From NCBI GenBank assembly GCA_902634695.1, contig CACPLE010000005.1, forward strand, positions 1-45,494: a stretch of 45,494 nt of DNA, given 5' to 3'. Source of the stretch: an uncultured Pelagibacteraceae bacterium (lineage in GTDB: Bacteria > Pseudomonadota > Alphaproteobacteria > Pelagibacterales > Pelagibacteraceae). Position numbers and translations under genes: made by a program. The notes under the pieces are model-generated. The model was not told the DNA's origin and searched no databases. It worked only from the letters and a program-made list of their open reading frames with translations. How positions within the stretch are numbered: the stretch's first letter is position 1; every line of letters starts with the position of its first letter. Of the stretch, positions 40,625-45,494 are shown one piece after another.

Positions 40625-41575
40625 ATGGCTATAGATAAAAAGTTTATTGATTTATTTGTAAATGTCACTTCTAAAGCTGCTCTAGCTTCATACTATACAG
40701 TAGGAAAAAAAAATAAAATCGATTCAGATAAGGCAGCTACTGACTCTATGAGGTCTGAGCTAAACAAAATTGAAATGAATGGAAAAATTGTAATAGGTGA
40801 GGGTGAGCTTGATGAAGCTCCAATGTTATATATAGGTGAATTAGTAGGAACTAAAAAAGGACCAGATTTTGATATTGCTGTTGATCCGTTGGAAGGTACT
40901 AATTTCGCAGCGAATAATTTACCTGGAGCATTATCTGTTATTGCGGTATCTGAAAAAAATAAATTATTTAATGCTCCTGAAACTTACATGGACAAAATAG
41001 CTGTTGGTAAAAATATATCCAGTGACGTTATAGATTTAGATTTTTCCACTAAAAAAAATATTGAAAATTTAGCTCAATTTAAAAATAAAGAACCCAATAA
41101 ATTAACAGCATGCATACTTGAAAGACCAAGGCATAAAAAAATTATTGACGAATTAAAGGAATTAAAAGTTAATTTAAAATTGATTAACGATGGTGATGTA
41201 TCAGGAGCTTTACTTGTAAGTGATGATAAATATGGTGTTGATATATTTCTTGGTATTGGAGGTGGTCCAGAAGGTGTATTAGCAGCTTCTGCTCTTGATT
41301 CATTTGGCTGTAAATTCCAAGGACGTTTTTTATTTAAAAATAACAATGATATTTTAAGAGCTAAAAAAATGGGTATTGAAGATTTAAATAAAAAATACGC
41401 ATTAAAAGAAATTGTATCAGGTGACTCTATATTTTGTGCGACAGGGATTACTAGTGGTGATTTAGTTAAAGGAATAAGTCTTAATGAGAATAATTATATT
41501 TCAGAGACTCTAGTTACACATAAGGCCAGCAATCTTAAAAAAATAATAAAAAAAGAAAATATTCTTACACCTTGA
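40625..41575 (+). CDS. glpX: Class II fructose-1,6-bisphosphatase
   Basis: VIGEGELDEAPMLYIGE, IAVDPLEGTNFAANN, INDGDVSGALL, GIGGGPEGVLAA. Confidence 0.94.
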   Translation: MAIDKKFIDLFVNVTSKAALASYYTVGKKNKIDSDKAATDSMRSELNKIEMNGKIVIGEGELDEAPMLYIGELVGTKKGPDFDIAVDPLEGTNFAANNLPGALSVIAVSEKNKLFNAPETYMDKIAVGKNISSDVIDLDFSTKKNIENLAQFKNKEPNKLTACILERPRHKKIIDELKELKVNLKLINDGDVSGALLVSDDKYGVDIFLGIGGGPEGVLAASALDSFGCKFQGRFLFKNNNDILRAKKMGIEDLNKKYALKEIVSGDSIFCATGITSGDLVKGISLNENNYISETLVTHKASNLKKIIKKENILTP

Positions 41576-41687: not shown

Positions 41688-41957
41688 ATGCCATATGTAT
41701 ATCTAATTGTATCAAAAAATAAAAAAAAATTAGTATCATATGTTGGATGGACAATTGATCTAGAAAAAAGATTAAAATTACATAATAGTAATAAAGGCGC
41801 TAAATTTACTAAAGGTAAAAAATGGAAATTAATATATCATGAATCTCTTTTAAGCAAAACTAAAGCAATGAAAAGAGAATATAAATTAAAAAAAGATATT
41901 AAATTTAGAAATTTTATGAAAAAAAAATTTTTAAAAGGTAAAAATATTGAAGAATAA
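41688..41957 (+). CDS. GIY-YIG nuclease family protein
   Basis: YVYLIVSK...VSYVGWTIDLEKRLKLHN...KWKLIYHE...AMKREYKLK. Confidence 0.88.
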   Translation: MPYVYLIVSKNKKKLVSYVGWTIDLEKRLKLHNSNKGAKFTKGKKWKLIYHESLLSKTKAMKREYKLKKDIKFRNFMKKKFLKGKNIEE

Positions 41958-42978
41958 AAATATAATATTTTTTTCTGTAGATAGACTTGGTGATTATATC
42001 ATAAGGTCAAATGTTATCAAAAAAATATCAGATAATTTTGATCATAAAGAAATTGTATGCTCTGAAAAGAATTTTAAATTAGTTAACTCACAAAGTTTTT
42101 TTAATAATGTATATTTTTTTAATTCAAATAAAAAATTTTTAGAAAAGCTTAAATTTTTAAAAAAATTTTTTTTAAAAAAATACGACAGCATTATTGTTTT
42201 TGATGGAAAAAATATTTCTAATATTTTACTATTTATAATAAAAGCAAATTTTAAGTTTACGTTTATTTACAAAAATAAAGGCGTTTTAAATTATATTTAT
42301 AGAAGTTTTTTGATATTTATTTTAGATATATTTAAAATTAATTATGAAATTTTACACTCCAGGCATTTAATCGAGAATGGTAATATAGATAATTATCCTA
42401 GAAAATATAAAAAATTAAATATTTTTTTTAACAATATTGATTCACATACGTATTACCTAGAAAATACTAATATCAATATTTATGATAATTTTTCAAATAA
42501 ATTTATAATTATCCATCTTGATGAAAAACTTAAGGATATTAAAAATATTAATAATAATTTTGAATCAAGTATTCGAAATTTTCAAAAAAGCATAGGGAAA
42601 AAAGTTTTTTTAACTTCTTTTAATAATAATTTTGATTATTATATAAATTTAAATTTCATTAAAATTGATTTTAAAAACTTGGAAAATAAAATAATGAATG
42701 ATTCTAAAATTTTAATCATTGAAAACATGCCATTAAATTATTTTCAAAATTTAATTAAAAATTCTTATTTAAATATAAGTTGTCACTCTGGTTTTTTTGT
42801 TCACACTTCATTATCATTAAACAAAAAAACTATCGATGTAATCAATAAATCTGATGAAATTTGGTTAGATACATGGATTGATGATAATAAAAACTATAGA
42901 AAAGTTTACAAATCAAATATGAAGGAAAGAATAGAAATTAATAATATTTTAGATTCGATTAATGATGAAATTAAATAA
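41947..42978 (+). CDS. GT9 (heptosyltransferase)-like glycosyltransferase, divergent; TTG start
   Basis: SVDRLGDYIIRSNVIKKI (cf. GT9 RxGDxxxTxP) and C-terminal SCHSGFFVHTSLSLNKKTIDV. Confidence 0.6.
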   Translation: MKNKNIIFFSVDRLGDYIIRSNVIKKISDNFDHKEIVCSEKNFKLVNSQSFFNNVYFFNSNKKFLEKLKFLKKFFLKKYDSIIVFDGKNISNILLFIIKANFKFTFIYKNKGVLNYIYRSFLIFILDIFKINYEILHSRHLIENGNIDNYPRKYKKLNIFFNNIDSHTYYLENTNINIYDNFSNKFIIIHLDEKLKDIKNINNNFESSIRNFQKSIGKKVFLTSFNNNFDYYINLNFIKIDFKNLENKIMNDSKILIIENMPLNYFQNLIKNSYLNISCHSGFFVHTSLSLNKKTIDVINKSDEIWLDTWIDDNKNYRKVYKSNMKERIEINNILDSINDEIK

Positions 42979-45076
42979 ATATAAATCAGCAATAATTCTT
43001 CCTTTAAAAGAAAGTTTTACGCATCAAAATTTTGGTGCAGTTTCTATATGGGTAAAAGATTATTTAAGTTTCACTAAAAATAAAAATAATATTTCTATTT
43101 ACTGTAAACAAAAAAAAAGAAATGAAAAATACTTAACTAAAAAGGTTAAAGATATAAAAGTTAAAAATAAACTATTTACTAATATTAACTATATAAAAGA
43201 AATTGGGCATAGCTTAAAAAAAAATAATATCACAAACGTTGAAATTCATAATAGGCCAGAATATGCGAAATATTTAATTAATAATTATCCAAAATTGAAT
43301 ATTGCGTTAATCTTTCATAACGATCCAAACTTCTTACGCGATAGTAGTTCAAATAATTCAAAAGAATTTCTTTTAAATAAATGTAGGAGGATTATTTTTG
43401 TTAGCAAGTGGTTAAAAGCAAAATTTTTTGAAAAATTGTCTATCAATCATAAAAACAATGTTGAAGTTATTTATAATTTTGTCAAACCTATAAAAAATTT
43501 TCCAAATAAAAAAAAAATAATTGTATTTTCAGGTAAACTCAATTCTCAAAAGGGTTATAATATTTTTGGTAATTCAATTATAAAAGTATTAAACATGAAT
43601 CCGAAATGGTCTGCGTTAGTTTTTGGCAATGAACCTAGAGAAAAATTTTCTTTTAAACATAAAAGATTAAAAATAAATGATTGGATTTCTCATTCAAATC
43701 TTTTAAAAATTTATGAAAAATCATCTATATCTGTAGTTAATCCCGTTTGGAATGAGCCTTTTGGTAGAACCGCAATGGAAAGTGCATCGAGAGGATGTGC
43801 TGTAATAACCTCTAGATCTGGCGGTCTACAAGAAACTTTTTTTAATAATCTCATTTTAAAAAAAAATAATGTTATTGAGCTTAGCAAATTAATAAACAAA
43901 TTAATTAATAATAAAAATCTTTTAGTTAAAATACAAAAAATAAATTTTAAGAATGTTAGACACACACCCAATTTAACAGTCAAAAAGTTAGATAAACTTA
44001 AATTTAATAAACCTCTTTTTTTTCCATATATAAAAAAAAAGAAAAGTTTTAAAATTTTACACATTGCTAATTTTGGAGAAAAAAATGATCACAGATTATT
44101 TAATATATCAATCGCTAATAAATTAAGTTTGGGGTTCGTAAGAAATAATCATGATGTAATTAATTTTGACTATCGTAACTATTCTAAAAAAAGTTATTTC
44201 GGAAAATATAATTTAGATGATAAAATAAAGTCAATTTTTAATAATTATAAACCAAATTTGCTTTTATTAGGCCACAACAACGTACTCAAAAGGGACACTT
44301 TAAATTATATAAAAAATAATAATTGTAAAATAGCCTTATGGTATGAAGATCATGTTATTAAAGGAGATCCTTACTACAGAAAAAATTTAAACTTAATTGA
44401 ACAAAATTCTGATTTAATTGATAATTATTTTATCACTACATGTCCAAGTATAATTAAATCTAAAATTAAAAAAAATAAAATTAATTTTTTGCCTATACCA
44501 GTTGACCCCAATATCGAGTGTGGTAATTTTTTTGAAGTACCTAAAGAAAAAGATTTATTTTTTGCTCTAAGTCATGGTGTAAATTACGGTATGCTTAAAA
44601 AAAATGTAACAGACGAAAGGTCATTATTTATAGATAAATTAATAAAATTATCGAAAGAAAGAATAAATTATAATTTTTTAGGCTTATTTGGAGAGCAGCC
44701 TAAATGGAATTACAATTATAACAAAGAATTGATGATATCTAAAACAGCTTTAAATTTAAGTAGAGGAGGTCCAAATAAGTATGCATCAAGCAACAGAGTA
44801 GCTACATTAATTGGTAATGGAGTATTAACATTCATTGACGAGAAAGTTAGATACCAAGATTTTTTTGATAACGATGAAATTATTACATATAAAAATCACA
44901 TTGATTTAACTAATAAATTATTGACGATAAAAGATAATAATAAATTAATTGTTAAAAAATCTAAAAAAGCAAAAAAAAGATATTTTGAAATTTTTCAAAA
45001 CAACATCATTTCTGAATTCATAATTTACAAGATATTTCAAAGTTCTAAGAAATATACATATGTCTGGGATAAATAA
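42962..45076 (+). CDS. Two-module glycosyltransferase: N-terminal GT4-like, C-terminal CgeB/Glyco_trans_1_2-like
   Basis: N-terminal FSGKLNSQKGYNIF, PVWNEPFGRTAMESASRGCAVITSRSGGLQE; C-terminal LSRGGPNKYASSNRVATLIGNGVLTFIDEK. Confidence 0.75.
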   Translation: MMKLNKYKSAIILPLKESFTHQNFGAVSIWVKDYLSFTKNKNNISIYCKQKKRNEKYLTKKVKDIKVKNKLFTNINYIKEIGHSLKKNNITNVEIHNRPEYAKYLINNYPKLNIALIFHNDPNFLRDSSSNNSKEFLLNKCRRIIFVSKWLKAKFFEKLSINHKNNVEVIYNFVKPIKNFPNKKKIIVFSGKLNSQKGYNIFGNSIIKVLNMNPKWSALVFGNEPREKFSFKHKRLKINDWISHSNLLKIYEKSSISVVNPVWNEPFGRTAMESASRGCAVITSRSGGLQETFFNNLILKKNNVIELSKLINKLINNKNLLVKIQKINFKNVRHTPNLTVKKLDKLKFNKPLFFPYIKKKKSFKILHIANFGEKNDHRLFNISIANKLSLGFVRNNHDVINFDYRNYSKKSYFGKYNLDDKIKSIFNNYKPNLLLLGHNNVLKRDTLNYIKNNNCKIALWYEDHVIKGDPYYRKNLNLIEQNSDLIDNYFITTCPSIIKSKIKKNKINFLPIPVDPNIECGNFFEVPKEKDLFFALSHGVNYGMLKKNVTDERSLFIDKLIKLSKERINYNFLGLFGEQPKWNYNYNKELMISKTALNLSRGGPNKYASSNRVATLIGNGVLTFIDEKVRYQDFFDNDEIITYKNHIDLTNKLLTIKDNNKLIVKKSKKAKKRYFEIFQNNIISEFIIYKIFQSSKKYTYVWDK

Positions 45077-45494
45077 TAAAATTATATGTATAGCTGGAAA
45101 AAATGTTTGTGCAATTAAATTTTTAAAATTTATCTCAAAAAAAATTAGAAAAAATAATTTAATTGTTCTTCCAAACAAGTCAGATAATGGTAAAGATTCA
45201 TGGCAACCATCACTTAAAAAATTCGCAAAAAAAAATAAATACAAAATTGTAAATTTGCAAAATATTTATAAAATAAAAAATTTAATTTTTATTTCAATTG
45301 AATATGAAAAAATAATCAATGTAAAAAAATTTAAATCAAGAGAACTCTTTAATTTCCATTTTAGTTTGTTGCCCAAATATAGAGGATGCCATACAAATTT
45401 TTTTCAAATTTATAATGGAGAAACATTTAGTGGTGTAACACTACATAAAATAGATAAAGGTATTGACACAGGTAATATTATTTCATCATTAAAA
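45060..45494 (+). CDS. Formyltransferase family protein (Fmt/sugar N-formyltransferase fold), truncated by window end
   Basis: ATG at 45060 open to the window end; NFHFSLLPKYRG...LHKIDKGIDTGNII with intact N-x-H...D triad. Confidence 0.82.
   Translation, partial: MSGINNKIICIAGKNVCAIKFLKFISKKIRKNNLIVLPNKSDNGKDSWQPSLKKFAKKNKYKIVNLQNIYKIKNLIFISIEYEKIINVKKFKSRELFNFHFSLLPKYRGCHTNFFQIYNGETFSGVTLHKIDKGIDTGNIISSLK

Follow-up and report, generated by a model that had tools for sequence, protein, structure and literature searches.

A candidate nucleotide-sugar 3-N-formyltransferase of Pelagibacteraceae and its predicted place in a three-enzyme set for a 3-formamido surface sugar

We analyzed a window of 45,494 b that makes up an entire contig (C5) of an uncultured Pelagibacteraceae (SAR11) genome, G000 (700,908 bases in 38 contigs, estimated 59% complete). 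Our results suggest, with a probability of roughly 70%, that the open frame cut off at the end of this contig encodes a nucleotide-sugar 3-N-formyltransferase, and that this enzyme would complete a three-step route, specified by a small gene set, to a 3-formamido surface sugar. According to the proposed pathway, a GnnA-like Gfo/Idh enzyme would oxidise C3 of a UDP-hexose, probably UDP-GlcNAc, using NAD(P)+; a PLP-dependent DegT enzyme would then add an amino group at C3; the formyltransferase would move a formyl group from N10-formyl-tetrahydrofolate to the C3 amine via its Asn-His-Asp triad; and a glycosyltransferase (GT) that co-varies with the set would transfer the product, a 3-formamido sugar, onto a surface glycan. 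Homology, preserved catalytic residues, gene order, joint inheritance of the set and a single clade were observed directly; the UDP carrier, the identity of the hexose, the order of the steps and the surface location are inferred.

The frame at the contig end, described earlier as a truncated formyltransferase that the ORF list had missed, is real: it starts with ATG, runs for 145 codons, is still open at the last base and is cut solely by the contig end. Its product matched Formyl_trans_N (E=6.6e-12, 46 bits vs. a cut-off of 26.1). The catalytic triad is intact at Asn98, His100 and Asp136, and its 38-residue Asn-to-Asp spacing is that of E. coli Fmt (N109/H111 when the initiator Met is counted), in agreement with the preliminary description. 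The 17-nt overlap with the upstream gene for a 704-aa GT was also as described there, and an identical overlap recurs in L033 and L034, two single-cell genomes. This exact repetition supports cotranscription and coupled translation of the GT and formyltransferase genes.

Table 1. Features of the predicted formylation set and its island. Positions are those of the window unless a contig is named.
Feature	Position	Strand	Evidence
GlpX-like fructose-1,6-bisphosphatase; conserved left flank, outside the pathway	40625..41575	+	By eye; synteny marker, orthologous flank in relatives
GIY-YIG domain gene; left island border in most related genomes	41688..41957	+	Pfam GIY-YIG, E=6e-17
343-aa ORF, probably another island GT	41947..42978	+	Similar ORF in G307 (L081:4612-5643), N-terminal sequence, by eye
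704-aa two-domain GT	42962..45076	+	Pfam: Glycos_transf_1 in N half, Glyco_trans_1_2 in C half
Predicted nucleotide-sugar 3-N-formyltransferase, residues 1-145	45060..45494	+	Formyl_trans_N; WlaRD, E=3.6e-42; N98/H100/D136; tail on C25
DegT aminotransferase	C25:52-1143	+	Gene order of relatives, homology
Gfo/Idh oxidoreductase	C25:1140-2111	-	Gene order of relatives, homology

The rest of the set was found by searching the source genome for the genes that come next in relatives, which led to contig C25 (6,763 b). Bases 1-57 of C25 hold the end of the formyltransferase gene, 18 codons and a stop, encoding the C-terminal residues KKVKTIKYKKKKIVINYD. This 18-residue tail is identical to the end of the G307 ortholog at 11 of 18 positions, a level reached by none of 30,770 control 18-mers, and about 90 codons between C5 and C25 are unsequenced. 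After the formyltransferase (+), C25 carries the DegT (+) and Gfo/Idh (-) genes, a tyrosine recombinase (-) and flank genes that were named by eye (MGMT, DMT, AEC and homoserine dehydrogenase). The order and strands of the genes from the formyltransferase through this flank are those of L033 and G307; thus, the apparent truncation is a contig break, and the placing of C5 and C25 as neighbours follows from synteny rather than reads. We also rejected a pseudogene, because the frame runs into the contig end and its last codons were recovered on C25. The amino-sugar genes that the preliminary description proposed to look for downstream are therefore present: one for an aminotransferase (DegT) and one for a sugar dehydrogenase (Gfo/Idh).

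To which family the formyltransferase belongs was assessed by sequence search, structure and phylogeny. The closest PDB relatives of the window protein by phmmer were WlaRD (3.6e-42, far beyond chance), HCAN_0200 (9.4e-40), FdtF (1.6e-36) and QdtF (1.7e-32), while ArnA (~1e-8) and Fmt (~1e-4) trailed far behind these 3-N enzymes, WlaRD outscoring by more than 100 bits. As the window copy lacks some 90 codons, the fold of the full-length protein was modelled with the L033 ortholog, whose top PDB matches were the same sugar 3-N-formyltransferases and whose predicted structure (pLDDT 85.5) best matched WlaRD (TM 0.87). A maximum-likelihood tree united the window protein with 11 orthologs from Pelagibacterales and three viral proteins in a clade (support 99/99.9) nested within the sugar 3-N-formyltransferase group (99/99), and E. 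coli Fmt, the source genome's own Fmt and ArnA formed a separate group (99/99); the long PurN and C8 branches of this tree are placed unsurely. This phylogeny and the presence of another fmt in the genome bear out the earlier proposal of a sugar formyltransferase rather than a Met-tRNA enzyme. The family and the catalytic residues strongly support a predicted transfer of formyl from N10-formyl-THF to an amine, and the clade together with the partner genes supports the 3-N position.

It is scarcely credible, by comparison, that the protein is a methionyl-tRNA, GAR or ArnA-type (4-amino-4-deoxy-L-arabinose) formyltransferase. It does share the Formyl_trans_N fold with such enzymes, along with Asn/His/Asp, and the nearest NCBIfam models were ArnA, PRK06988, PurN and Fmt, though none came near its cut-off. 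Fmt was rejected on the tree, the PDB scores and a separate fmt gene on C4, which lies beside an apparent peptide deformylase gene (by eye). PurN was rejected on a separate purN gene on C9, the PDB scores and the NCBIfam score under the cut-off. ArnA was rejected on the tree, its weak PDB score and the architecture of the orthologs, which are ~250 aa long without a second domain and lack ArnA's fused UDP-GlcA decarboxylase domain.

Within the sugar 3-N enzymes, the characterised formyltransferases closest in sequence (WlaRD, QdtF and FdtF) use dTDP-6-deoxy-3-amino sugars, which counts against the proposed pathway. The protein could accordingly be a classical dTDP-Qui3N/Fuc3N N-formyltransferase acting on a dTDP-3-amino-3,6-dideoxyhexose that RmlA/RmlB, FdtA/QdtA and a 3-aminotransferase would supply, and the Gfo/Idh protein would then have some other role. 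The DegT protein is related to QdtB as well, and the formyltransferases of Sulfurovum and Psychrobacter, which lie outside the clade, adjoin homologs of RmlA, RmlB and FdtA (assigned by eye and mutual similarity). However, we consider the dTDP route quite unlikely. FdtA was not found in the source genome, nor was any RmlB homolog above the equivalog cut-off, although at 59% completeness this carries little weight. The complete gene sets of Pelagibacterales relatives likewise have no recognised RmlA, RmlB or FdtA neighbour, and the loci of the clade have Gfo/Idh nearby with no FdtA homolog seen. Moreover, seven columns separate this distinct clade from the dTDP-type enzymes without exception (C16, R107, C109, N112, Q115, N156 and L160 in L033 numbering), four of which (107, 109, 112 and 115) stand shortly after the catalytic Asn/His; these residues came from screening for clade differences and are hence descriptive. 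Of the earlier suggestion of a Qui3NFo/Qui4NFo-type glycan, an N-formylated amino sugar of the 3-N type was retained, but the sugar itself was probably wrong, given a set that resembles a GnnA/GnnB-type route at C3 and neither FdtA nor an RmlB above cut-off in the assembled genome.

The partner enzymes suggest instead C3 chemistry on a UDP-hexose. Among the top PDB matches of the source genome's DegT protein were 7n63, 7b0d, 5u1z, QdtB and WbpE, of which we take 5u1z, QdtB and WbpE to be sugar 3-aminotransferases. The Gfo/Idh protein retains the EKP motif and D167/H171, and its model (pLDDT 87.8) had the UDP-GlcNAc 3-dehydrogenase GnnA as first structural match (TM 0.81/0.83 on the top chain), by a small margin, at ~15% identity in the structural alignment and with many other Gfo/Idh folds scoring nearly equal. 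The UDP-GlcNAc 3-dehydrogenase model NF040723 was the best NCBIfam model of two Gfo/Idh orthologs, both of which stayed below its cut-off (107-114 bits vs. 450). UDP-GlcNAc is a plausible starting sugar, at about even odds, and UDP-Glc or others are possible.

A different product, 3-formamido-3-deoxyglucose (kanosamine type) or a 3-formamido uronic acid in place of UDP-GlcNAc3NFo, is rather unlikely, with perhaps one chance in a handful or slightly better. It would require C3 oxidation of UDP-Glc, of glucose-6-phosphate (NtdC/NtdA-like) or of UDP-GlcNAcA (WlbA/WlbE-like). NtdA and WbpE are indeed among the DegT relatives, and GenD2, KanD2 and KijD10, Gfo/Idh enzymes that act at C3 of sugars, came close behind GnnA in the fold search. 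Nevertheless, GnnA was first in that search and NF040723 was the best model of the two orthologs; against the NtdA-like route in particular, NtdA ranked far below the nucleotide-sugar enzymes in the PDB search with the source genome's DegT protein; and the neighbourhood of the set at these loci revealed no recognisable dehydrogenase that would make a uronic acid.

The glycosyltransferase that overlaps the formyltransferase gene also appears to belong with the set. Of 12 sampled genus genomes that lack the set, 10 carry a homologous GT in this position ahead of the recombinase, with other short cargo after it. A tree of nine of these GTs and the GTs of set-bearing loci placed the ten formyltransferase-adjacent GTs in one clade (100/100), apart from the same-site GTs of set-less genomes; L035 carries two GTs, and only the 701-aa copy beside the formyltransferase joined this clade. 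In a second family of the order, where the set lies elsewhere, beside an HflX-like gene, the GT after it has 355 aa and is a homolog of the window GT's C-terminal half (~34% identity, E ~1e-38). Based on the co-variation with the set and this C-half homolog, the simplest proposal is that the window GT would transfer the formylated sugar, most likely via its C-terminal half.

The gene upstream of this GT, the 343-aa ORF, had no Pfam or NCBIfam match, and a short ORF similar to the GIY-YIG gene follows glpX in related loci (N-terminal sequence). The GIY-YIG gene and the tyrosine recombinase (L052:2116-3033) bracket a variable island in most genomes. The recombinase was considered as an island integrase and rejected: it is single-copy in 53 of 59 genomes of the genus, most of them without the set, and serves as a flank marker. 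The island has a G+C content of 21%, vs. 27% for the remaining window. Its GTs, its low G+C and the variability of the site suggest that the product is a surface glycan.

The known Pelagibacterales O-chain cluster adjoins rRNA genes (PMC11898729). In the source genome the rRNA-side locus is on C8, after a complete 16S-23S operon, and includes a PseI-type synthase above the cut-off. Since the O-chain site is this locus on C8, the window island is a second, smaller glycan locus of the source genome. A distant formyltransferase-like gene (L010:7531-8325, where L010 is G000:C8:8000-24000) was observed in the PseI-containing nonulosonic-acid cluster, which comes directly after the 16S-23S operon. 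One SAR11 genome may formylate sugars at two separate glycan loci.

Close relatives of the formyltransferase gene occur in Pelagibacteraceae genomes with the same flanks. At E<=1e-25, matches were found in 15 of 398 genomes of the order, three of which (G163, G167 and G352) fell outside the clade. All 14 distinct Pelagibacterales loci with a formyltransferase of this type have Gfo/Idh no more than two genes away, and 13 have DegT at that distance, the exception being G183. In the window's family the set occupies one chromosomal site, after glpX and mostly before the tyrosine recombinase; for G311 a short contig is all that shows. The Gfo/Idh gene of the window's group runs in the opposite direction, which, like the missing DegT neighbour of G183, speaks against the proposed pathway.

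Three of these genomes differ in individual features. The G183 locus (L084:7665-9352) has the formyltransferase and Gfo/Idh without an adjoining DegT, which is perhaps elsewhere or lost. The formyltransferase match of G330 (L083:2051-2809) contains an in-frame TAA, so that this copy may be broken or the codon a sequencing error. G163 has, close to a contig end (L085:748-1572), a formyltransferase that belongs to the dTDP-type (QdtF/FdtF) branch; it adjoins a glycosyltransferase-like gene and respiratory-chain-like genes.

The formyltransferase was also present on seven viral contigs (L089-L095). In all five that are long enough, two of which are near-identical, it is followed by Gfo/Idh and DegT in the same order; one example is L090:5983-8674, from a marine viral contig with the SAR11 gene order. 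On one viral contig, the small subunit of a ribonucleotide reductase of phage type is encoded upstream, consistent with a T4-like marine virus. A comparison of the viral formyltransferase with named phage records gave no match, and its annotation as "phosphoribosylglycinamide formyltransferase" came from a PHROG match (phrog_9240).

A literature search for UDP-GlcNAc 3-dehydrogenase together with formyltransferase returned no paper, and the word "formyl" is absent from the main texts of the SAR11 O-chain-cluster paper (PMC11898729) and the pelagimyophage paper (PMC7029224). We put forward, tentatively and at somewhat less than an even chance, a pathway absent from the papers searched, in which a UDP-2-acetamido-3-formamido-hexose would be made via GnnA-type oxidation, DegT amination and a distinct 3-N-formyltransferase clade. 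It would be one interchangeable cargo of a second, short SAR11 surface-glycan island, and marine T4-like viruses would carry the pathway as well. If this is true, such viruses could use the set to remodel the surface of the host they infect.

The formyltransferase belongs to a known class of enzyme; what makes it a new variant is that it is paired with a GnnA-like dehydrogenase, forms a clade of its own, and occurs in SAR11 and in viruses. Sugars with an N-formyl group are familiar mainly from the surface glycans of a few pathogens, and SAR11 is one of the most abundant bacterial groups in the sea. In SAR11 the three-enzyme set sits in a glycan island that is short, replaceable and separate from the O-chain cluster beside the rRNA genes, and it recurs in marine viruses, which would tie a specific sugar chemistry to SAR11 surface variation under phage pressure. 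The set is defined and directly assayable, and sugar formyltransferase genes of this kind are easily mislabelled purN or fmt.

Compared with known systems, the SAR11 formyltransferase is most like WlaRD of Campylobacter jejuni, HCAN_0200, QdtF and FdtF, the dTDP-3-amino-3,6-dideoxyhexose 3-N-formyltransferases, with which it shares Formyl_trans_N, the Asn/His/Asp triad and a deep clade; the L033 ortholog can be aligned with WlaRD over its full length (43% identity in the structural match). It differs from these enzymes in the seven private residues and in its partners, Gfo/Idh and DegT rather than adjoining RmlA/RmlB/FdtA; the orthologs also lack the extra C-terminal length of QdtF and FdtF (~400 aa).

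The partner pair is like GnnA/GnnB of Acidithiobacillus ferrooxidans, a UDP-GlcNAc 3-dehydrogenase and 3-aminotransferase that make UDP-GlcNAc3N for lipid A, in combining DegT with a Gfo/Idh of similar size. However, the SAR11 Gfo/Idh has diverged far from GnnA, and the SAR11 set is joined to a formyltransferase; from GnnAB biology, an N-formyl group would prevent the amide acylation that follows in the lipid A pathway. With the WbpE/WlbE and archaeal UDP-GlcNAc 3-dehydrogenase (NF040723) routes to UDP-GlcNAc3NA-type sugars, the SAR11 set would have in common that a Gfo/Idh enzyme oxidises C3 and a DegT enzyme aminates it; it differs from them in that the group would be N-formyl rather than N-acetyl and that no uronic-acid dehydrogenase was recognised in the set.
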